Assembly: GCA_938027685.1 (NCBI GenBank)
Contig: CALJAM010000029.1
Span: forward strand, 62,001-126,000
DNA from: an uncultured Bryobacteraceae bacterium
GTDB taxonomy: Bacteria > Acidobacteriota > Terriglobia > Bryobacterales > Bryobacteraceae
DNA: 64,000 nt
Direction: 5' to 3'
This document shows positions 8,288-24,203 of the stretch, piece after piece; position 1 is the first letter of the stretch, and each line of letters opens with the position of its first letter. Position numbers and translations under genes: made by a program. The notes under the pieces are model-generated. The model searched no databases. It was given only the letters and a program-made list of their open reading frames with translations, and was not told the DNA's origin.

Positions 8288-10459
8288 TCAGCGCGTCCTG
8301 CGCACCGATGGTGCGGACTTGGTTTTCTCAGGCGTTTTCTCGGTCTTCGGCTTTGTCGGGGAGACCGCGGGCGGCGCTCGGCCATAGATTTGGCGGTATA
8401 TTTCCGCGTTGCGTAAAACGGCCTGGACGTAGCCCCGAGTTTCAGTGAAGGGGATGGTCTCGATGAACTCGGCCGCCTCTTGAAACTCGCCCCACGTGAG
8501 CCAATTCTCCACTCGGCTGGGCCCGGCGTTGTAAGCCGCCAGCGCCACTTCCGTCCGGCCGTCGTACTTATCGATCAGCGACCGCAGGAAGTACGTTCCC
8601 AGGCGGATGTTATAATCCGGCTGGAAAAGGCGGCTGCTGCGATAGCCCGACAAGCCAAGCCGGCGCGCCAAGATTCTACCTTGTGAAGGCAGGATCTGCA
8701 TGAGGCCGTACGCGCGGGCCGGAGAGACCGCCCCCGGATTGAACTCGGACTCCTGGCGGATGAGGCCCGCAATCAGGTAGGGATCGAGCCTGTTGCGCCG
8801 GGCATGCGTTTCGATGAGGCCGCGGTGCGGCAAAGGAAACAGGATTTCCCAGAAACGTTTCGGTGCGGCTTCCAGCCGGATGCTCAGGTAGCCCGGCGCG
8901 AGCTCCTTCACGGTGCGAAGGACGCGGTGAACCGGCTCGACGCCGCGCATCAGCTCCGCCCACTCGAGCGCGGCCAGGTACGGTTGTCCGTCTACGCGCG
9001 CGCTGAACTTCAGCTCCTCGTCCACCGCCTCCGGCAGTCCCGCTGCACTCAGCAGCCTTGCCCGCCGCAGGCGGACCCGCATGGACTCGCCGGGCTTGAA
9101 GCCGTCGGCAGCGGGAGCGGCAGGCCACGCCAAGCTGCCAAGAAATAGTCGGATCTCTGCCGCGGGCGCCACGCTGCTGATTTCGGGCGTGCGGAGGCGG
9201 CGATCGGCCGCCGCGGCGTAGTAATAGCCGGGGTAGCGTTCCACGATCGCTTCGTACCAGGCCCGGGCCTGCCCCGTGCGGCCGTTGATCTCCTCCAGCC
9301 GGCCCAGGAAATACAGTGCCGCCGGGGAATGTTCGCAGGAGGAGTACCGCATCAGATGCTCGCGCAAGGCCGTCGCCGCCCCGGCTTGGCGCTCCTGGTA
9401 GAGTCGCCAAACGACCTTCCAGTGGCAATAGCAGCTTTCCGGTTGCTCTCGAAAGTCCTCCGCGCACGCGCGGAATAGCGGCAGGTATTGTTCATGCTGA
9501 TTCTCCAGCAGGTAGCGATTGGCGGCTGAGATCAGAGCCCGCAGTCGCCAGATCGAGCGCGGGTACAACTGCGCGAGTCTGCCGAGCAGCGCGCGCATAT
9601 CGGCATCCCGCTTGAGCCGGCGTGCGCATTCGACCAGGTAATAAAGGCGCTCGGCATCCGCCTCCGGATCGGCGACGTCGAACGAACGCAGGTAGTCCCA
9701 GGCGGCCGCGGTTTCGTAGTCGCGAAACAGGGCTGCGCCGACGCGCACCCGCGCAATCTCGCGCTGCCTGCCGCCCAGCATCCTGGTGAGCTCCTCGTAT
9801 TCGGCGCGGGCGCGGCGGTATTGCCGAACGCGCATCCAGAACTCGGCGCGCTCGATCATCTGCTCGGGCATCGGAGGCGGATAGCGTTCTCCGAGGGCCT
9901 GTCGCAATCGGTCGAGCGCCTGGCGGGCGGCTGCGGCTTCGGCCGAAGCCGGATAGCCGTAATAGACGCGCTGCCACGCCGCGGCGGCTGCGGGCAGATC
10001 GCCTGCGGCCTCGAGTGCGGCGGCCAACATCGCCTCACCTTCCGGTTGCGGCAGGTCCGACCAGTGTTGCTGCAGGGCCTGGCGCGCAGCCCGAGGGTCC
10101 TGGAGCTTCAGATGCGTCTGGGCCTTGAGGAGCGCGGCCTTGCCGGCCAGCGGCGACGGGATCCGGCTTCGCCAAACCTCTTCGAGCGCCTCCGATGCGG
10201 CCGCGTAGTTGCCGCGCTGGAATTCGGCCCAGGCCAGCCAATAGCCTGCGTAATCGCGAAGCTCAGGCAGCCTGGACCGCACCGGCTGGAGATTTCGCAC
10301 GGCATCCGCCCAGCGCCCCTCCCGAGCTGCGCGAATCCCTTCGCGGAGCAAGCGTTCCGGCGTCGCAGCCGCCCGTCCGGGCTCCGCGAGCGCGCCCAGC
10401 ATCCCGCCGCTAAGCAGCAGGCTAAACCAGCGGACCCGGATACTCCGTGCCCAACGCAT
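8288..10459 (-). CDS. slt: Soluble lytic transglycosylase (Slt70-like)
   Basis: About 723 residues from ATG 10459, chosen because it gives a basic n-region plus hydrophobic core (MRWARSIRVRWFSLLLSGG). An ATG at 10510 would lengthen the overlap with the upstream gene from 38 to 89 bp. The middle is a long alpha-helical superhelix of TPR-like repeats. The C-terminal 150 residues are an SLT catalytic domain: 'IRQESEFNP' containing the catalytic Glu, 'YGLMQILPS', and 'ALAAYNAGPSRVENWL'. It cleaves the MurNAc-GlcNAc bond of peptidoglycan with 1,6-anhydro product formation in the periplasm. It is the last gene of the minus-strand run beginning with xdhC. Confidence 0.92.
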   Translation of the reverse strand: MRWARSIRVRWFSLLLSGGMLGALAEPGRAAATPERLLREGIRAAREGRWADAVRNLQPVRSRLPELRDYAGYWLAWAEFQRGNYAAASEALEEVWRSRIPSPLAGKAALLKAQTHLKLQDPRAARQALQQHWSDLPQPEGEAMLAAALEAAGDLPAAAAAWQRVYYGYPASAEAAAARQALDRLRQALGERYPPPMPEQMIERAEFWMRVRQYRRARAEYEELTRMLGGRQREIARVRVGAALFRDYETAAAWDYLRSFDVADPEADAERLYYLVECARRLKRDADMRALLGRLAQLYPRSIWRLRALISAANRYLLENQHEQYLPLFRACAEDFREQPESCYCHWKVVWRLYQERQAGAATALREHLMRYSSCEHSPAALYFLGRLEEINGRTGQARAWYEAIVERYPGYYYAAAADRRLRTPEISSVAPAAEIRLFLGSLAWPAAPAADGFKPGESMRVRLRRARLLSAAGLPEAVDEELKFSARVDGQPYLAALEWAELMRGVEPVHRVLRTVKELAPGYLSIRLEAAPKRFWEILFPLPHRGLIETHARRNRLDPYLIAGLIRQESEFNPGAVSPARAYGLMQILPSQGRILARRLGLSGYRSSRLFQPDYNIRLGTYFLRSLIDKYDGRTEVALAAYNAGPSRVENWLTWGEFQEAAEFIETIPFTETRGYVQAVLRNAEIYRQIYGRAPPAVSPTKPKTEKTPEKTKSAPSVRRTR

Positions 10460-11497: not shown

Positions 11498-13843
11498 TCA
11501 GGGGGAGGAGGCGCGGGCCAGTTTGAAGGGCCACAGGGTGCCCTCCAGCCGCAGGCGCCTGTGTTCGCTTGTCAGCTCGGCCACCACCTTTCCATTCGGT
11601 TCCGCTCTGACGGCGCCCTGAAAGATCGCATCGCGGTGCACGGCCTCGAGCGCCTCCACGCTCAGCCTGGGTACTCTGCGCAGTTGACGTACTGTGAAAC
11701 GCGCCGCCAGCAGTTCGAGATGATCGTCGGCAGCAATGGGGATGCCCCGTCCCAGAACGGAGCCTTGGGCGCGGAGGTTCGCGGTCAATTCCTCACCCAC
11801 CCCTTCGGTTTCGAGCCTTCCTTCGATCCACCATCGGCCGCCTCCGGCCTCCAGGGGCCCGCCGGCGAGCGTGACGGCATAGACAGGTGTGGCCCTGCGC
11901 AGGTCCACTTCGATGCGCCCCCGCAATTCGCCTTGTCCCGCACGGGCGTGCAGTTCGCGTATCGCGGCTTTGAGGCCGTCCCAGCTCAGGCGCCCTCGAG
12001 CTGCCGCGGCCAACGGCACACCGTCCAAGTCGACCGCTGCCGCTTCGATTCTGCCTTCCAGCCGGCGACGCAGAAGCCAGCCCGGAGCCGGCGCGCGCCG
12101 GCGGCGCAAGGCGCGCGCGAGCATGCCTCCGCGTCGGTCGAGGACCGGAGCCAGCAGGCGTTCCAGGTCCGCCAGATCGAGCCGCTCGATACGCACGTCC
12201 AGCCTGGCCGGGCGGCCTTCCGCCTCTTGCGCTGCGTAGTCGGCGATGAACGGAATGTCGCCCGCCGTGCCCTGCAGGCTTTGCAACCGGATCTCGTCCG
12301 CCGCCAGTCGAAACTCCGCCTGCTCGATTTTGAGAGGCGACGCAAGGCCGGGAACGGAGATCTCCGCGTGGTGCAGATCGACTCGTCCTGTCCAGCGGCC
12401 GGCTTTCGGGGGGTCCCGCACGAAGCGTAGCGTGCCCGTCCATGCACCCCGGCTGCAGGCCGCAAGCAGGGGAACGTCCGGGAGGTCGGGCCACAACCCA
12501 GGGCCGGGAACAGCGGTCGGAACCCGCTCGCCTTTGAGGATCAGCGAGAAGGCGGAGTCTTGCCGCGACCAGGACCCCTCCAGGGTAAGGCGGCCCTCGT
12601 CCGGGGTCTCGATTTTGCCGGGCCCGAGCCGCAACCGGTCGGCCTCTATGGAGATGGGTAGGCGGAGACACCGCAGTTGGAGCCCGGATGCCACCTGGGC
12701 CGTGACGTCGCGCGCCTCCAGTGCACCCTCCCAACCGGGCCCCGGTCTATAGGCGAGCACGCCTGAGACCGCTCCGCTCAAGGCGAGGCCGGTCGGAGCC
12801 GGCACACCCACCACGCGCAACAGTTCCAGAAGGGCATCCGCGGGCATCGCCTCGAGTGCTACCTCGGCCTTCCACTCGGGCTCGCTGAGATACTGCACGG
12901 CCTCCCACCGGAATTTCAGCGGGAGGCCGGTGGCCGGCGCCGCCTCCAGTTTCAGGCGCTGGCCGGGCAGATCGGCGGCGCCCTCGTAGTTGAGGCGCCA
13001 GTCACCACCCAGCGAGGGCAACAGGTCCCAACGTCGAAAATCCCGCACCTGCGCCACCCCGGTGATGCGCAGTGCGGAGGCGGGGCCTTGCACTCGGGCG
13101 CGGGATGTCAATTGTCCGCGCAAGCCGAGGTCCCGCCCGGCCAGCAGGGTGGAGATCTCCTCGAGGTACGTGCGTTCGACCGTGACGTCGAGTTCCAACT
13201 CTTTACCGGCCAGCACACGTCCACGGCCCGCAATTCTTCCCAGTCCGTGCGCGGGTCGATCGGCGCGGGCGGGCTCGCCGCTAAACCGCACCTCCCATGC
13301 CGGCTGCCCGCGGGAGGGCGGTTGCAGATCCACGTCCGCATTGGCCAGGTAAAGTACTGACTTGGTATCGCCGAACTTGAAGTTGATGCGGCCTTTGCGA
13401 ACGGAGATGGCAGGCAGGCGCCCAGCGCCACTCCCGGGAATTTCCGGCGGGCGACTCACCAGGTCCACGAAATTCCAGGAGCCGGTGGCGGGCTTCACCA
13501 AATTGACACTCGGCTCCACCAGGCGCAAGGAGGCGAACTCGAGCTTGCCGGTCCACAGACTGCGCAGCGCAAGCCGCGCCTCGAGCGAGGTGACGTAAGC
13601 GAACGGCTCGCGCCCCACGCGAGGATCATCCTCGATGATGACGTCGGAGAGGGAGACGCTTGGGCCACCCAGCAAGCCCAGACGTGCTTTCCCTGCGGTC
13701 ACGCGCCGGTGCAATTCGCGCTCCAGGCTGGCCTGGATGCGGCGCCGATGGCGCTCGAGGTTCCAGTAAGGAGCCGCTGCCAGGGCGACCGCCACCGCGG
13801 CCGCCGCCGCAGCGAGCAGGCGCCGCCAACTCGGTCCGCTCAT
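11498..13843 (-). CDS. AsmA-family envelope protein
   Basis: 781 residues. An N-terminal membrane anchor (about 8-28, Ala-rich) is followed by the AsmA opening 'RRRIQASLERELHRRVTAGKARLGLLGGPSVSLSDVIIEDDP' region, then long beta-rich repeats typical of AsmA/TamB-like proteins. Current knowledge places such proteins as bridge-like lipid carriers or outer-membrane assembly factors between the inner and outer membranes. The start ATG 13843 overlaps the stop of the upstream nucleotidyltransferase gene (ATGA), indicating translational coupling. The C-terminal part (about 600-781) again resembles AsmA_2-like repeats. Confidence 0.82.
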   Translation of the reverse strand: MSGPSWRRLLAAAAAAVAVALAAAPYWNLERHRRRIQASLERELHRRVTAGKARLGLLGGPSVSLSDVIIEDDPRVGREPFAYVTSLEARLALRSLWTGKLEFASLRLVEPSVNLVKPATGSWNFVDLVSRPPEIPGSGAGRLPAISVRKGRINFKFGDTKSVLYLANADVDLQPPSRGQPAWEVRFSGEPARADRPAHGLGRIAGRGRVLAGKELELDVTVERTYLEEISTLLAGRDLGLRGQLTSRARVQGPASALRITGVAQVRDFRRWDLLPSLGGDWRLNYEGAADLPGQRLKLEAAPATGLPLKFRWEAVQYLSEPEWKAEVALEAMPADALLELLRVVGVPAPTGLALSGAVSGVLAYRPGPGWEGALEARDVTAQVASGLQLRCLRLPISIEADRLRLGPGKIETPDEGRLTLEGSWSRQDSAFSLILKGERVPTAVPGPGLWPDLPDVPLLAACSRGAWTGTLRFVRDPPKAGRWTGRVDLHHAEISVPGLASPLKIEQAEFRLAADEIRLQSLQGTAGDIPFIADYAAQEAEGRPARLDVRIERLDLADLERLLAPVLDRRGGMLARALRRRRAPAPGWLLRRRLEGRIEAAAVDLDGVPLAAAARGRLSWDGLKAAIRELHARAGQGELRGRIEVDLRRATPVYAVTLAGGPLEAGGGRWWIEGRLETEGVGEELTANLRAQGSVLGRGIPIAADDHLELLAARFTVRQLRRVPRLSVEALEAVHRDAIFQGAVRAEPNGKVVAELTSEHRRLRLEGTLWPFKLARASSP

Positions 13844-14430
13844 GGGAGGTCGCCCAGCAGCCGTTCGTAGCCGACGGGATCATCGGCATCCTCGACGACG
13901 CCCGGGTCCTCGACTTCCACGTAGCGCGTCGATTCGCGGTGGCGACGCAGCACGAGGCGGGCCTGGGATTCCGGGGGCTCGGCAAGCATCTCGGCCGCCA
14001 ACGGCCACGCGCAACAGACGGGATGCCCGCCTCGTCCCCGGTATCGTGGCGCTACGACCTGCGCTCCGCCGCGCAGGAACTCCGCCACCACGTTCTCGAT
14101 CGTGTCGGCCCGCACCGCCGGGTGGTCCACGGGAGTGAACAGAAAACCCGAGATGTGTTCCGGCAAGGCCGCCAACGCGCATTGCAGCGAGCTGAACTGG
14201 CCGCGCTGCGGTTCGGGGTTGATCACGAATTGGGCCTCGGCGGCTCGGCGGATTCCCGCCCGGATCCGTTGCGCGTCGGCACCCAGCACGACCAGCACCG
14301 GATCGCAGTGCGGGCGCAGCAGCCCGATCCAGCGGTCCAGCCAGGTTTGCCCGTGATAGTCGAGCAAGGCTTTCGGCGTTCCCATGCGCCGCGAAGCGCC
14401 TGCGGCAAGGATGATGCCCGCGATGCTCAC
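13840..14430 (-). CDS. mocA: MobA/MocA-like molybdenum cofactor nucleotidyltransferase
   Basis: 196 residues from GTG 14430, which overlaps the xdhC stop as GTGA. The open frame extends further upstream but only inside xdhC. The signature LAAGASRRMGTPKALL (about 8-23) is the NTP-binding loop of the MobA/MocA/IspD-type fold. 'RGQFSSL', 'FTPVDHPAV' and 'GRGGHPV' match the CTP-binding, metal-binding and substrate segments of MocA. It probably transfers CMP (or GMP) to molybdopterin to make the dinucleotide cofactor of xanthine-dehydrogenase-family enzymes. Pairing with xdhC supports MocA, but no such enzyme is encoded in this window. Confidence 0.85.
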   Translation of the reverse strand: MSIAGIILAAGASRRMGTPKALLDYHGQTWLDRWIGLLRPHCDPVLVVLGADAQRIRAGIRRAAEAQFVINPEPQRGQFSSLQCALAALPEHISGFLFTPVDHPAVRADTIENVVAEFLRGGAQVVAPRYRGRGGHPVCCAWPLAAEMLAEPPESQARLVLRRHRESTRYVEVEDPGVVEDADDPVGYERLLGDLP

Positions 14431-15263
14431 GTCAACAGCTCGCGGAAGCGTTCCTGCAAGAAAATGGATTTGGAAAGCTCGCGCCAGTTGCTGTTCGCCC
14501 GCCGCCGCACGGCGATCATCTCCGCCACCACCGCCACGGCGATCTCTTCCGGCGTCACCGCACCGATGTCGAGTCCCATGGGGGCGTGCAGATGCCGGAA
14601 AGCGCTCCCGGGCACGCCCTGTTTCTTCAACTCTTGCACGGTCTCGATAACCTTGCGGCGGCTGCCCACCATGGCGATGTAACGCGCCGGTGTCGTCACG
14701 GCCAGGCGCAGCACGCGCATGTCGTCGCGGTGACCGCGCGTCACAATCACCAGGTAGCAATTTTCGTTGACGGCCAGCTTCTGGAAAGCGCTTTCGTAGG
14801 GTTCAGCGTAAATGGCGTCCGCCTCGGGGAAACGCTCGCGCGAGGCGAAGCTCTCACGGTCATCCACGACGGTGACGGCGAAACCGGCCAGCGAGGCGAT
14901 CTTGGCCAGGCTGCGCGAGATGTGGCCTGCGCCGAAGAGGATCGCCCGCGGCGGGGGCAAAACGGGCTCAACGTAGATCTCCACCTGCCCTCCGCATAGC
15001 AGGCCGCTCTCGCCGGCTGCGTCCTGGCTGAGAGCGAAGGAAAGCAGCCGGGGTGTTTCGGTCTCCATGACGTCCCGGGCGGCGTTCCAGACCTCGGCCT
15101 CCACACAGCCTCCCCCGACCGTGCCGAGGATCGAGCCGTCGTCCCGCACCAGCATCTTGGCGCCGGCGTAGCTCGGTATGGACCCGCGCGCGCCGATAAT
15201 GGTGGCCAAGGCGCACTTGCGTCCCTCACGGCGCAGCCGCACCAGTTCCTCGAATACGTCCAC
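14427..15263 (-). CDS. xdhC: XdhC/CoxI-family molybdoenzyme maturation protein
   Basis: 278 residues. The N-terminal XdhC_CoxI segment has 'ALATIIGARGSIPSYAGAKMLV', 'GTVGGGCVEAEVW' and 'LLCGGQVEIYVEP'. The C-terminal Rossmann-like domain has 'AILFGAGHISRSLAKIA', 'VVDDRESFASRERFP' and 'YIAMVGSRRK'. Family members bind molybdenum cofactor and promote its sulfuration and insertion into xanthine dehydrogenase-type enzymes. It is the first gene of the xdhC-mocA-asmA-GAF-slt run. Start GTG 15263 has no ribosome-binding sequence, and a perfect TATAAT lies 9 nt upstream, suggesting a leaderless mRNA. Confidence 0.88.
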   Translation of the reverse strand: MDVFEELVRLRREGRKCALATIIGARGSIPSYAGAKMLVRDDGSILGTVGGGCVEAEVWNAARDVMETETPRLLSFALSQDAAGESGLLCGGQVEIYVEPVLPPPRAILFGAGHISRSLAKIASLAGFAVTVVDDRESFASRERFPEADAIYAEPYESAFQKLAVNENCYLVIVTRGHRDDMRVLRLAVTTPARYIAMVGSRRKVIETVQELKKQGVPGSAFRHLHAPMGLDIGAVTPEEIAVAVVAEMIAVRRRANSNWRELSKSIFLQERFRELLT

Positions 15264-15390: not shown

Positions 15391-16044
15391 GTGGTTTCGG
15401 CACTTATTTTCGATCTGGACGGGGTTATCGTGGACTCGAACCCGGTGCACGTGCTGGCTTGGGAGCGTTACCTGGCCCGCTGGGGACGTCCGCTGCCGCC
15501 TCGTCCCGGCGCCCTGATTTTCGGCCGCCACAACGATGAGATCGTGCGCGCGCTGTTTGGCGACTGGCTCAGCCCGGAAGAGGTCGCGGCTCACGGCGCC
15601 GCCAAGGAGGCGCTTTATCGCGAATTGATGCGTCCCGTGTTGCGGGAGCGACTGGTGCCCGGGGTGGCGGAGTTTCTCGAGAGGTGGTCGGCGCTGCCGA
15701 TGGCGGTGGCCAGCAATGCCGAGCGCGCCAACGTGGATTTCGTGCTGGAGGAGTCCGGGTTGCGCCCTTACTTCCGCGTGGTGCTCGACGGCGCGCAGAT
15801 CCTGCGACCCAAGCCCGATCCTGAAATCTACCTGGAAGCGGCGGCGCGGCTGGGTGTGGAGCCTGCAACCTGCGTCGTTTTTGAAGACTCTCCCTCAGGG
15901 GTGGCGGCAGCTGAGGCCGCGGGAGCGCAAGTGGTCGGCGTCTGCACTACTTATAAAGAGTTGGCCGGCGTCGCGCTGGCCGTTCGTGATTTTCGCGATC
16001 CGGAGCTGGAAAGATGGATGCGGTCGCGTCTGGCTGCCTGCTGA
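15391..16044 (+). CDS. HAD-superfamily hydrolase, beta-phosphoglucomutase/phosphoglycolate-phosphatase type
   Basis: 217 residues from GTG 15391. Motif I is FDLDGVIVDSNPVH (nucleophile and acid Asp), motif II is the Ser in 'AVASNAERA', motif III is the Lys in 'RPKPDPEIY' and motif IV is 'FEDSPSGVAAAEAAG'. The cap after motif I is the helical type of subfamily IA. It should remove or move phosphate on a small sugar phosphate in the cytoplasm; the exact substrate is not readable. Its 3' end overlaps the next gene by 31 bp. Confidence 0.85.
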   Translation: MVSALIFDLDGVIVDSNPVHVLAWERYLARWGRPLPPRPGALIFGRHNDEIVRALFGDWLSPEEVAAHGAAKEALYRELMRPVLRERLVPGVAEFLERWSALPMAVASNAERANVDFVLEESGLRPYFRVVLDGAQILRPKPDPEIYLEAAARLGVEPATCVVFEDSPSGVAAAEAAGAQVVGVCTTYKELAGVALAVRDFRDPELERWMRSRLAAC

Positions 16045-17813
16045 CCGTGCTGGGAACATGGGACGTCTCGGCGCCCGGCGAACACCCTGCGACGGCTTAC
16101 TGGCTGAGTCTGGCAGGAGTCGTCCCCGGCATGCAGATCAGCCTCGCCGTTTTCCTCGCCGTCATCGCCGTGCTGGGCCTGACGATGGCCATGGCCCGGG
16201 CGCGAGGAAGACGACTGGAAGCCCAGCGACAAGTTATTCGGAAGCTTTTCGCGCTCGGGGAGGAAGTGCTGGCCGCCGGCTCGCCGGAGGAACTGGTTCG
16301 TCAAATCCGAGCGGTGCTGCCGGCCTTGCTGGGGGCCACCGGCCTGCGGTTATACCTCTATAACCGCAGCGCTCACACGCTGGAGGAAATCGGGACCGAC
16401 GGGGCTTCGCGCCCGGCGGTCATTCCCGTCGATCGTGCGCGCGGACTTGTGCCCGGGGCGGTGGCGGCCTGCTTCCGCAACCAGACGCTGTTGAGCGTGC
16501 CGGACGCTCGCCAAAGCCCGTTTCTCGAACACCCTGGAGAGGCAGATCGCGCGCGTGCCTTGCTGTTGGCGCCGATGACCGCCCAGCATGAAGTCCGCGG
16601 CGTCCTCGAAATCTCCGATGCCCGGCGCAGGCGCGAGTTCGGGCCGGACGAACGCATGATGGTCCAGCACATCGCCAACCAGGCCGGCATTGCGCTTCGT
16701 CTAATGGAAGAACAAAGAGTGCGCGAGCAGCTTTCACGCACGGAGCGCATGGCGGCCGCCGGCCAGTTGCTCTCCAGCGTCGCCGCCGAGCTGCGTGGGC
16801 CGGTCAACGCGATCGTGCGCCTCACCGACGCCTTCCTCTACAATCGGCACGGCCCCCTCACCGAGGAGGAGATGCGCACCATCGCGGTGGAGGCGGAGCG
16901 CGCCAAGAACATCCTCGAACGCCTGGTCTCCTTTATTCAGCCGGACCGCACCGAAGCCCGCCCCGTCGACCTGAGGAGCCTGCTCGTGCAGATGCTGGAG
17001 TTTCGACGGCCTCACTGCGCGACGCGCGGCATTGAAATCCACGAGCAGCTCGGCGTCGAGCCGGTTTGGGTTCTCGGATCCCGAGGCCAACTGGAACGCG
17101 TCTTCCTCAACCTTCTGATGCACGCAGAGCAGGCCCTGGCCGATGCGTTCGAAAAGCGGATGAGCGTCAGCCTGAGCGTGCTGGCCCATCGGGCCCTGGT
17201 CGAGATCACTTATACCGCCGGTGGGCCGCAAGCGTCGACGGGCGCCGAGCGGGGGGATACCAGCGTCCTGATCGAGGGGGTCATTCGCGGCATCGTACAA
17301 AGCCACGGCGGCGAGACGCGTCTGGTGCGCCTGGGCAGCGTCGGCTCGCGCATGGAAGTGGAGTTGCCGCTGGCGCCGGAGCGATCGGGGGTGCGTCCGG
17401 GGCTTTTGGGCGAGCGCTTCGCGCCGCGCCTCTCCACGGTGTTGCTGGTCGAGCCGGACTCTGGCGCGCGCAGCCGCCTGATGAGTCTGCTGAGCAGCCG
17501 CGGCTACCGTGTGGTGCCGGCGACCGGCGCCGAGCAGGGCGCCGAGCTTGCCCAGCGCATCCGCTTCGATCTGGTTTTCTGCTCTTCGCAGTTGCCGGGC
17601 CTGAACTGGTTGGATTTCTTCCGCACCGTGCAGCGTCGCGTGCAGGCCTTCGTCCTGGTGACGCCCGCTTTCGATCCCGAACTGGCGCGGCAACTCCCCG
17701 AGGGCGGAATCCACGTGCTGGCCAGACCCATCGTGGAAATCGAGCTCGAGCGGCTGCTTCTGGCGCTGGAATCGACCGTGGAGACCGGGCCGGCGGCGCC
17801 TCCCCCGAAGTGA
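16014..17813 (+). CDS. Degenerate hybrid sensor kinase (TM-GAF-pseudo HisKA/HATPase-pseudo REC)
   Basis: 599 residues. A membrane segment at about 41-63 is followed by a GAF domain (about 75-230), a HisKA-like dimerisation helix, an HATPase-like domain (about 350-455) and a C-terminal receiver-like domain (about 474-585). Key residues are missing. The phospho-acceptor His of the usual 'AHELRNP' motif is Ala258 (VAAELRGP). The N-box Asn is His370 (NLLMHAEQAL). No DxGxG or GxGxG lid motif exists. The receiver phospho-Asp is Ser524 (DLVFCSSQLPG) and its conserved Lys is Arg571 (LARP). It is therefore probably a non-phosphorylating scaffold or ligand-responsive partner. ATG 16131, just before the membrane helix, is an alternative start. 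Confidence 0.85.
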   Translation: MDAVASGCLLTVLGTWDVSAPGEHPATAYWLSLAGVVPGMQISLAVFLAVIAVLGLTMAMARARGRRLEAQRQVIRKLFALGEEVLAAGSPEELVRQIRAVLPALLGATGLRLYLYNRSAHTLEEIGTDGASRPAVIPVDRARGLVPGAVAACFRNQTLLSVPDARQSPFLEHPGEADRARALLLAPMTAQHEVRGVLEISDARRRREFGPDERMMVQHIANQAGIALRLMEEQRVREQLSRTERMAAAGQLLSSVAAELRGPVNAIVRLTDAFLYNRHGPLTEEEMRTIAVEAERAKNILERLVSFIQPDRTEARPVDLRSLLVQMLEFRRPHCATRGIEIHEQLGVEPVWVLGSRGQLERVFLNLLMHAEQALADAFEKRMSVSLSVLAHRALVEITYTAGGPQASTGAERGDTSVLIEGVIRGIVQSHGGETRLVRLGSVGSRMEVELPLAPERSGVRPGLLGERFAPRLSTVLLVEPDSGARSRLMSLLSSRGYRVVPATGAEQGAELAQRIRFDLVFCSSQLPGLNWLDFFRTVQRRVQAFVLVTPAFDPELARQLPEGGIHVLARPIVEIELERLLLALESTVETGPAAPPPK

Positions 17814-19231: not shown

Positions 19232-21076
19232 ATGCCCTCGCGCGCGCTGGTTGTAGTCCTACTGGGGGCAAGCGTGTCGGCGGCGCAGACGCTCTGCCCG
19301 CCGACGCCCGCGTATTCACCCTGCGAAATCGTGTTCGAGCTTTCCGAGGCTGACGGGGCGGCGCATCCCAACCCCTATCTGACGATCACGTTCGACGTCG
19401 AATTTCGTTCGCCCCGCTTCCGCACGCTGAAGTTGCCCGGCTTCTGGGACGGGGGCCGCCGCTTCGTGGTGCGCTTCGCACCGACCGGCCCGGGCGAGTG
19501 GAGCTTCCGCACCGTAAGCAATGCGCCATCGCTCGACGGCCGCGAGGGCGCCGTCACGGCGCTGCCCTCGGATTCGCCCGGATTCGTGCAACCGGCCAAC
19601 GTGCATCACTGGGCGTGGGTGGACGGCATCAACCGCAGGCCCCATTTGTGGATGGGCGACACCTGCTACCCGTTTGCCTTCCTAGAGCGCGAGCTTTTCG
19701 AAAAGCTCGTCGAGACGCGTGCGGCGCAGAAGTTCAACCACCTGCGCGGGATCCTGATCGGCTCCCGTCAGTACTCGGCCCGCGCCTTCCCGGAGCCCGA
19801 CCGACCTGATCCCGCGTTCTTCCAGGAACTCGACCGGCGCATTCTCTTCATGAACCGGAAGGGCATCATCGCGGACCTGGTGCTGGCGGGCGACGAGAAT
19901 CACCTCGCGGAACTGTTCCCGAGGCCGGCGCAGCGCGAGCGCTATATCCGCTACGTCGTGGCCCGCTACGCCGCCATGCACGTCACCTGGCAGGGGGTGC
20001 AGGAGTTCGAGGAGTACCCGGACGGCCGCGCCCTGCTCAAGGAAATCGGTCAGCTTCTGCTCAGGCTCGATCCCTACGGACATCCGCGCTCGACTCATAC
20101 CGTAGCCACTTCCTCGCCGCTGTTCCAGGACGGCTGGATGAACTATCTCGTCTACCAATCCCATGACGACCAGCTCGGCGCCATCGAGCATCAGATCTAC
20201 CCCGCGCCGCAGGTGAATGTCGAGTTCGCCTACGAGGACAGCGGCGCGGGGCGAGCCCTGCCGCATCACGTGGATACGGATACCTTCCGCCGCCGCCTGT
20301 GGAACGCCACGATGAACGGGCAGTATCCCACCTTCGGAAACACCGGCACCTACGGCGGCCGTTTCCCGGTAGACGCACGTTACCTGGATTCCCCCGGCGC
20401 ACGGCAGATGACGCACTGGTTCGATTTCTTCTCCCGCACGCGCTTCTGGGAGCTGGAGCCCTTTTTCGACGTGGAAGGCGGCCGTGCGCTGGCGCTGGAG
20501 GGCGTCGAGTACGTCGTCTACGTGGAAAAGCCCGGCCCGGTGGAGGTGCTGGTCGAGAAGCACAGCTACGACGTAGCATGGTTCAACCCGCGCACCGGCC
20601 AGTACGTAAAGCAGAAGGACTTCAAGGGGGATCGCTTCCGCGCCGAGCCTCCCACCCGCGATCAGGACTGGGTGCTGCACCTCTCGCGCGAGGGCCGCAA
20701 GCAGTCGATGCTGCGCAGCTACAAGTTCGAGTCGCGACCGGTACTGATGCAGGAAATCGAGCAGAGCCCGCAGCGGGCGCCCTTCGAAATTGCCTCTCCG
20801 CTCGAGGAAAGTATCTCGCTGCGGCTGCCGCCGCGCTACGCCGTCAAGCTTACCCGGCAGAGCCGCGCCACCCGCTCCATGATGTGGCTCTGGATCGGCG
20901 AGGCGCCGGCCGACGGTCTAGGTTTCCGAGTGCTCGGCACGGGTCCCGAGGGCACGTTCCGCTTCCCGCGCTACTTCGCGCGCAACCTCCCCGGGGTGCT
21001 TGCCCTCCGACTGTACGGGCTCAACGCCAACGGCAAACTCTACGCGCTGGACCACGTCTACAAGCTGCTGCCGTGA
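19232..21076 (+). CDS. Exported DUF5060/DUF4038 (apiosidase-like) glycoside hydrolase
   Basis: 614 residues from ATG 19232. A signal peptide (PSRALVVVLLGASVSAAQT) precedes an Ig-like DUF5060 domain ('NPYLTITFDVEFRSPRFRTLKLPGFWDGG', 'GPGEWSFRTVSNAPSLDG'). A TIM-barrel region follows from about residue 120, opening with 'RRPHLWMGDTCYPFAFLERE' as in DUF4038 proteins. The DUF4038 family includes GH140 apiosidases of rhamnogalacturonan-II breakdown, but the catalytic residues could not be assigned by eye, so the substrate is uncertain. The C-terminal 150 residues are a beta-rich accessory domain. Its stop overlaps the start of tsaB (GTGA). Confidence 0.75.
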   Translation: MPSRALVVVLLGASVSAAQTLCPPTPAYSPCEIVFELSEADGAAHPNPYLTITFDVEFRSPRFRTLKLPGFWDGGRRFVVRFAPTGPGEWSFRTVSNAPSLDGREGAVTALPSDSPGFVQPANVHHWAWVDGINRRPHLWMGDTCYPFAFLERELFEKLVETRAAQKFNHLRGILIGSRQYSARAFPEPDRPDPAFFQELDRRILFMNRKGIIADLVLAGDENHLAELFPRPAQRERYIRYVVARYAAMHVTWQGVQEFEEYPDGRALLKEIGQLLLRLDPYGHPRSTHTVATSSPLFQDGWMNYLVYQSHDDQLGAIEHQIYPAPQVNVEFAYEDSGAGRALPHHVDTDTFRRRLWNATMNGQYPTFGNTGTYGGRFPVDARYLDSPGARQMTHWFDFFSRTRFWELEPFFDVEGGRALALEGVEYVVYVEKPGPVEVLVEKHSYDVAWFNPRTGQYVKQKDFKGDRFRAEPPTRDQDWVLHLSREGRKQSMLRSYKFESRPVLMQEIEQSPQRAPFEIASPLEESISLRLPPRYAVKLTRQSRATRSMMWLWIGEAPADGLGFRVLGTGPEGTFRFPRYFARNLPGVLALRLYGLNANGKLYALDHVYKLLP

Positions 21077-21744
21077 GTCCCCGTATTCTGGCCCTGGATA
21101 CGACGACCGAATTCGGCAGCCTGGCGCTGTCCGAGGGAGAACAAGTGCTCGAAGAAATGTTGATTCATTCGCCGGACGGCTTCGCGCACGTTCTCTTCGA
21201 CCAACTCAGGCAACTGCTGGAACGCCATGGCCGGCGCATCGATGAGGTGGACTGCTTCGCCTCGGCCGCAGGGCCCGGCGCCTTCACGGGCGTGCGCGTA
21301 GGCCTGGCGGCGGCCAAGGGCCTGGCGGAAGCTACCGGCAAGCCGCTGGTGGCGGTTTCGAATCTCCAGGCGGTCGCCTGGTTCGGGACGGCGCCGCTTC
21401 GGGCGGCTGTGCTGGACGCCCGCCGGGGGGAGATCTACGGCGCGGTCTACGGGCCGCAACTGGAGCCGGTCTTGCCCGAGACGGTCATGAAGTTTCCCGC
21501 GTGGCTGCAGACGCTGCCCGAAGGCGAGCTCGAGTTCCTATCCACGGATTTCTCGCCCTTCCGCCATGCGCTGGCGGGCACAAAATGGGCTCAGGCGCCG
21601 GTCCGACAGGTTCCACGCGCTCTTGCGGGGGCTATCGCGCGCATCGCGCTCGAGCGCTATCGGGCCGGGCAGGCCCAGGATCCGGCGGCAGTCGATGCGC
21701 TCTACGTGCGTCGGTCTGACGCCGAACTAGCCTGGCGGGAGTGA
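21073..21744 (+). CDS. tsaB: tRNA threonylcarbamoyladenosine biosynthesis protein TsaB
   Basis: 223 residues from GTG 21073, translationally coupled to the preceding gene through GTGA. 'ILALDTTTEFGSLAL' is the ASKHA phosphate-1 motif, and 'ASAAGPGAFTGVRVGLAAAKGLA' is the TsaB/TsaD hallmark. TsaB partners with TsaD and TsaE to place t6A at position 37 of ANN-decoding tRNAs. The C-terminal half is shorter and more variable, as usual for TsaB. It converges on kdsA with only 3 bp between stop codons. Confidence 0.92.
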   Translation: MSPRILALDTTTEFGSLALSEGEQVLEEMLIHSPDGFAHVLFDQLRQLLERHGRRIDEVDCFASAAGPGAFTGVRVGLAAAKGLAEATGKPLVAVSNLQAVAWFGTAPLRAAVLDARRGEIYGAVYGPQLEPVLPETVMKFPAWLQTLPEGELEFLSTDFSPFRHALAGTKWAQAPVRQVPRALAGAIARIALERYRAGQAQDPAAVDALYVRRSDAELAWRE

Positions 21745-21747
21745 GCC

Positions 21748-24203
<2,456 letters not shown>

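Follow-up and report, generated by a model that had tools for sequence, protein, structure and literature searches.

A conserved acidobacterial sensor protein with the fold of a hybrid histidine kinase and joint loss of its phosphotransfer residues

Introduction

Pseudo-histidine kinases and pseudo-receivers are known kinds of signalling protein, and to our knowledge only a small number of pseudo-histidine kinases have been described, most of them as isolated cases. In DivL of Caulobacter, the DHp-CA fold is kept and the acceptor His is gone, with Tyr550 in its place; the protein is described as having no kinase or phosphatase activity and as working by binding two-component partners (PMC4211667). 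RetS of Pseudomonas aeruginosa, which is of the membrane sensor kinase type, is reported to inhibit GacS, to bind the GacS kinase domain and to work by DHp contact with it (PMC12148439). Pseudo-receivers, or aspartate-less receivers (PsR, ALR), have a receiver fold without the phospho-Asp in which the switch Ser/Thr and Lys are mostly kept, and Acidobacteria are named among the phyla richest in ALR per genome (PMC4395418). Finally, the hybrid kinases ShkA and CikA are described as carrying a pseudo-receiver that inhibits the kinase part of the same chain (PMC12632262).

Here we describe a protein that resembles these systems, encoded in a 64,000-nucleotide stretch of DNA from an uncultured Bryobacteraceae bacterium (assembly GCA_938027685.1, contig CALJAM010000029.1, positions 62,001 to 126,000), which we call the window.

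Results

A hybrid histidine kinase fold in an intact reading frame

The sensor frame is uninterrupted over 599 codons, its reverse strand contains stops, and its product shows GAF, DHp, CA and receiver folds in the order expected of a hybrid histidine kinase (Table 1). Pfam recognises the GAF domain (E 4e-11) and gives sub-threshold matches for HisKA and the receiver, the latter (PF00072) at 28.8 bits and E 1.4e-6, just under the 30.2-bit cut-off; no HATPase_c match is listed for the protein in the Pfam scan. An AlphaFold model from a 19-row alignment (mean pLDDT 80.8) contains a long N-terminal transmembrane/coiled helix, a GAF domain, a two-helix DHp, a CA sandwich and a receiver fold.

Structural comparison using VIA-align matched the CA part (residues 313–455) to the CA domain of ThkA (Z 19.3, 2.5 Å, 133 residues), the GAF part to the GAF domains 3ci6 and 3trc (PtsP; Z 17.8 each), and residues 470–598 to the PmrA receiver 7m0s (Z 16.8, 2.3 Å, 123 residues). 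DivL (4q20; Z 17.1, 198 residues, rmsd 8.7 Å) and the RetS-GacS complex (7n0e_B; Z 17.4) are also among the fold matches, beside many active kinases; the model is a fold prediction and says nothing on loss of ATP binding. A first-pass annotation of this locus had read the domain order TM-GAF-HisKA-HATPase-REC in an intact 599-codon frame and had proposed structure prediction as a check. Reading frame, Pfam and structure matches bear that order out, and each of the four folds was modelled.

Table 1 Features of the sensor locus, in window coordinates; residue numbers are those of the sensor protein.
Feature	Position	Strand	Evidence
HAD-IA phosphatase gene (beta-phosphoglucomutase-like), overlaps sensor gene	15391..16044	+	PF00702 E 1e-28, TIGR01509
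Gene overlap, 31 bases; sensor ATG inside HAD gene	16014..16044	+	Sequence, locus comparison
Pseudo-hybrid histidine kinase, 599 aa	16014..17813	+	Open reading frame, AlphaFold model
Hydrophobic segment, likely single TM helix (residues 42–61)	16137..16196	+	Sequence; inside predicted helix 38–87
GAF domain (residues 90–228)	16281..16697	+	Pfam; structural matches
Pseudo-DHp/HisKA domain (residues 231–310)	16704..16943	+	Sub-threshold Pfam; AlphaFold; structural match
Ala258 codon, acceptor-His column	16785..16787	+	Alignment with true kinases
Pseudo-CA (HATPase-like), residues 311–456, without DxGxG, short lid	16944..17381	+	Alignment, AlphaFold, structural match
His370 codon, second N-box Asn column	17121..17123	+	Alignment
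ATP-lid region, shortened (residues 400–414)	17211..17255	+	Strand 393–400 then helix 414–430 in model
Pseudo-receiver (residues 474–590)	17433..17783	+	PF00072 sub-threshold; PmrA receiver match
Ser524 codon, receiver phospho-Asp column	17583..17585	+	Alignment
Arg571 codon, receiver Lys column, usually Lys in relatives	17724..17726	+	Alignment

Catalytic positions are lost from kinase, ATP site and receiver

A competent hybrid kinase requires an acceptor His in the HisKA H-box, an ATP site with N-box Asn, DxGxG and lid, and a phospho-accepting Asp in its receiver. Alignment with the true kinases L060 and L061 places Ala258, His370 and Ser524 at the acceptor His, the second N-box Asn and the receiver Asp, just as the first-pass annotation had assigned them. 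Its statement that the G1 and G2 glycine motifs are gone holds for G1 (DxGxG), which is absent, but the Gly-Gly pair that closes the G2 region (432–433) is retained. It also named the correct residue, Arg571, at the receiver Lys position, but this is a minor variant, the column being Lys in 40 of the 51 core relatives defined below. The stretch from N-box to G2 (residues 371–433) measures 63 residues, against 73–75 in L038, L060 and L061, and the second acid of the receiver pocket is replaced by Pro481.

Because the acceptor, the ATP motifs and the receiver Asp are absent, phosphate transfer by the window protein would be very unlikely; nucleotide binding by the sensor family is also unlikely, given the additional loss of N-box Asn and DxGxG and the shortened lid. 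At the level of sequence, the protein conforms to a pseudo-histidine kinase, that is, a kinase fold without at least one catalytic function that is kept by selection, and its C-terminal domain, a receiver fold without the phospho-Asp, to a pseudo-receiver (ALR).

The losses are shared across an acidobacterial family

A search of 151 relatives gave long matches, 30–79% identical, in more than half of the same-family genomes searched, with open frames of 500–900 codons in most relatives; named matches of the same kind belong to Bryobacteraceae, Bryobacterales and Candidatus Solibacter records. When 237 genomes of the family were searched with a profile, 138 gave a strong match (E at most 5.7e-45; table count). 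The sensor is dispensable, since ~99 of the 237 genomes (~40%) are without a strong match.

Conservation was counted over 51 core relatives, all belonging to a single acidobacterial family whose named records are Bryobacteraceae/Bryobacterales. This core set was obtained from 76 aligned rows by dropping 25, namely fragments, the true kinases L060 and L061, the sister families L038, L046, L051 and L054, and short or strongly diverged forms. The acceptor His is found in none of the 51, and His, N-box Asn and receiver Asp are all lost together in 50; the receiver Asp survives in one relative (L036), DxGxG in one, and a GLGL-like G2 in eight. A wider count over 71 rows, which includes most of those dropped from the core set, found the His in one (L038) of the 69 rows with a letter at that column, the N-box Asn in two rows and the receiver Asp in 5 of 71. 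Published base rates concern single losses, 0.9% for HisKA without its His and 2.0% for receivers without their Asp (PMC12632262), whereas here all sites are lost jointly and across a family.

The first-pass annotation had proposed examining whether Ala258 and Ser524 are conserved in related acidobacterial proteins. The loss of His and Asp is shared, but column 258 is occupied by N, S, A, G, T, D or another residue, so that the position has gained no new acceptor. The E/D adjoining the His column and the Pro five positions on (263) are retained among relatives, and the Lys571 and Ser/Thr550 columns of the receiver mostly so.

A sister lineage retains every catalytic residue

We computed a quick maximum-likelihood tree of 66 rows (80 aligned rows minus 14 near-duplicates and short forms, with fragments and L059 excluded before alignment) from which the three diagnostic columns had been taken out; the outgroup comprised the best 16 of 27 rows. 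All family rows form a single clade (SH-aLRT 100), inside which L038 (sister family), three rows of a third family and a 46-row main clade (98) meet in a fork without resolution. Apart from L038 and the 16 outgroup kinases no row carries the acceptor His, those of the main clade included, and the tree needs a minimum of two changes at this site.

L038, which is the same stretch as L080, scores above the Pfam cut-offs for HATPase_c, HisKA and Response_reg, shares ~35% identity with the window protein along its length and is without a HAD neighbour. This hybrid kinase orthologue (L038/L080/L166; G091, sister family) has the His, the N-box Asn, DTGTG, GLGL and the receiver Asp all present. Because this one sister-family relative keeps every catalytic residue, the ancestor was likely an active hybrid kinase; the tree pattern would be explained if a working GAF hybrid kinase had gone dead where the main clade begins or one step before that.

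Purifying selection is strongest on the dead kinase domains

Compared with its congener L002 (79% identical), the window protein has an NG86 dN/dS of 0.127 overall, and of 0.060 in DHp (91% identical), 0.083 in CA, 0.097 in the receiver, 0.120 in GAF and 0.334 in the N-terminus; the HAD gene described below gives 0.186. These ratios are rough, as dS is ~1.1 in the congener comparison, and YN00 gave no estimate for most comparisons. Among congeners the most constrained parts are thus the two dead kinase domains, with the N-terminus loose, which argues for DHp and CA being kept as contact surfaces.

The comparisons indicate that the sensor has been kept by purifying selection since it lost its phosphotransfer sites. 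The earlier description of the gene as selected and not decayed is strongly supported by the absence of His from all 51 core relatives, by dN/dS values that are lowest in the dead kinase domains and by a conserved start codon; neither close homologues with His and Asp nor a raised dN/dS in this copy was found. Private decay of the window copy is ruled out by the loss across the core relatives together with the low dN/dS.

The N-terminal input region differs among lineages

Most relatives are ~800 residues long and carry, behind a signal-like start, ~200 beta-rich residues ahead of the TM helix. PF01336 matches, all sub-threshold, suggest that this part is OB-like, an assignment made from sequence only, the fold searches having been filled by kinase-domain matches. 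The window protein and its congeners are without the module, and a search for a split form, in which the module would be encoded at another genomic site, gave no match in G000, G001 or G002. Since the module is present in most relatives and absent here, input appears to differ among lineages while the dead kinase core stays. Tandem OB-like modules probably also stand ahead of other acidobacterial sensor kinases.

The sensor gene starts inside a HAD phosphatase gene

The gene upstream encodes a HAD-IA phosphatase that scores above the cut-off of the wider model TIGR01509 (85 bits) and below the curated cut-off of the beta-phosphoglucomutase family model TIGR02009 (144.4 bits against 153.35); what we take to be its HAD motifs look intact. 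A HAD gene lies directly 5' of the sensor, on the same strand, at 56 of 70 loci and is missing at nine, five loci with too little upstream sequence being counted as neither. Clustering of neighbouring ORFs returned HAD as the single frequent partner (30 of 50 sources), the other recurrent clusters being read-throughs of the sensor gene itself or local neighbours, and no conserved two-component gene family was found among the conserved neighbour clusters. A literature search, by titles, gave no relevant report of a HAD phosphatase and a histidine kinase in one operon.

The sensor start codon falls within the HAD gene, with an overlap most often of 31 or 28 bases, and its ATG straddles two HAD codons, taking the A from the third position of the first and the TG from a conserved Trp codon (xxA-TGG). 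This ATG is present at 42 of 55 loci with a sensor, seven more of which have GTG at the same site, against 1 of 16 HAD genes from sensor-less relatives (Fisher p 5e-7, phylogeny ignored and uncorrected for kinship; Trp-less loci, 1 of 56 with and 4 of 20 without a sensor, set aside), and only 9.6% of HAD codons have A as third base. These counts support the sensor start at 16014, and a start codon carved from a conserved HAD Trp codon points to translational coupling of the two genes. A spurious ORF or a wrong start was ruled out by this start-codon control.

The pair is not obligate, each gene also being found without the other: six sensor genomes (G025, G028, G033, G035, G039 and G062) lack a HAD match at E 1e-30, and none of twenty HAD loci chosen as being without a recognised sensor has one next door, some of these contigs ending early.

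Some further genes were named by eye. HAD neighbours in sensor-less loci include alaS-, aroC- and PNPase-like genes, and in the sensor-less family genomes of L146, L155, L158 and L161 a PNPase-like gene is often found downstream of the HAD gene. Within the window, adjoining XdhC-like and MobA-like frames (molybdenum cofactor type) occupy 13840–15263 (−), and KDO-8-phosphate synthase-like and CTP synthase-like genes stand in a row at 21748–24188 (−), with a TsaB-like frame just before them at ~21060–21744 (+), all of these last being housekeeping genes.

Discussion

With a little better than even confidence, we regard this protein as a membrane-anchored, phosphorylation-independent pseudo-hybrid histidine kinase, kept by one acidobacterial family of soil bacteria, that acts by protein contact. 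The sequences indicate descent from an ordinary GAF hybrid kinase whose acceptor His, ATP-binding motifs and receiver Asp had disappeared by the time the family radiated. The resulting pseudo-kinase would still form the DHp dimer and take its input at GAF and, in most relatives, also at the periplasmic OB-like module; the signal could then be relayed through an altered conformation of DHp, CA and pseudo-receiver, so that a two-component partner is bound or released with no transfer of phosphate, as in DivL and RetS. It might, as the first-pass annotation had suggested, be a scaffold or decoy that uses the GAF ligand to control a partner kinase; the coupled HAD gene and the OB-like module of the relatives are additions to that picture.

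The described systems differ from this family in several respects. DivL, from Caulobacter, has PAS inputs, whereas the present sensor has a GAF input, comes from a different phylum, has a dead receiver too and shows a stronger loss of ATP motifs. DivL is not known to carry a receiver, and RetS has other sensor and receiver domains than the protein described here. Compared with other aspartate-less receivers, the dead receiver is here fused to a kinase that is just as dead, and the two are conserved jointly; in ShkA and CikA the kinase part is active, in contrast to the predicted state of the one here.

The gene pair itself suggests another partner, and the sensor could be a membrane-bound regulator that binds the upstream HAD phosphatase, the sensed signal setting HAD activity or cell location. 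We consider this bolder reading unlikely, if credible: the frequent same-strand neighbourhood, the apparently intact HAD motifs and a sensor start that is conserved within the HAD gene, but almost never seen in HAD genes of sensor-less relatives, speak for it. The coupling may, however, set expression only, and the reading is the weaker alternative in that either gene can be found alone, as the nine loci without a HAD neighbour, the six genomes without a HAD match and the twenty HAD loci illustrate. A more specific form seems improbable to us. In it, a former two-component sensor, now devoid of all phosphate chemistry, would serve a metabolic HAD phosphatase as a membrane-bound subunit that responds to the signal, the two being translated in overlap from one transcript, and would act as a kinase-shaped allosteric regulator entirely outside two-component signalling.

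Some catalysis via unusual residues is also conceivable, be it weak ATP binding, a response-regulator phosphatase activity or phosphorylation at another residue. The HisKA phosphatase reaction is described as having no strict need for the His (PMC12632262), and the retained E/D and Pro 263, the eight GLGL-like G2 motifs and the mostly kept Lys571 and Ser/Thr550 columns would suit such a role; the variable column 258, where an invariant new acceptor is absent, and the additional loss of N-box Asn, DxGxG and lid length make it quite improbable. That the gene is an evolutionary remnant under relaxed selection and heading for loss, we hold to be very improbable. Strong matches are indeed missing from many family genomes, and G057 (L058) holds, behind its HAD gene, only a short piece of the sensor frame (~8355–8771, −), possibly a decaying copy; but long open frames in most relatives, a dN/dS of 0.06–0.13, the conserved start and the great age of the catalytic losses stand against this reading, which is largely refuted by the low dN/dS and the family-wide losses.

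Our literature searches place the proposed pseudo-kinase as follows. A lineage-wide dead kinase and dead receiver with an intact sister and a start inside a phosphatase gene was not among the matches listed from open-licence papers, the matches listed for pseudo-histidine kinases included no acidobacterial case, and nothing among the matches listed for Bryobacter (best 12 of 110) fitted such a protein.

In this family, dozens of genera share a dead kinase, a dead ATP site and a dead receiver, while one sister lineage keeps every catalytic residue. The family may therefore serve as a natural series for seeing which surfaces stay constrained after phosphate chemistry is lost, and hence where such proteins bind, with L038 as a natural active control and the coupled HAD gene as a concrete candidate partner.
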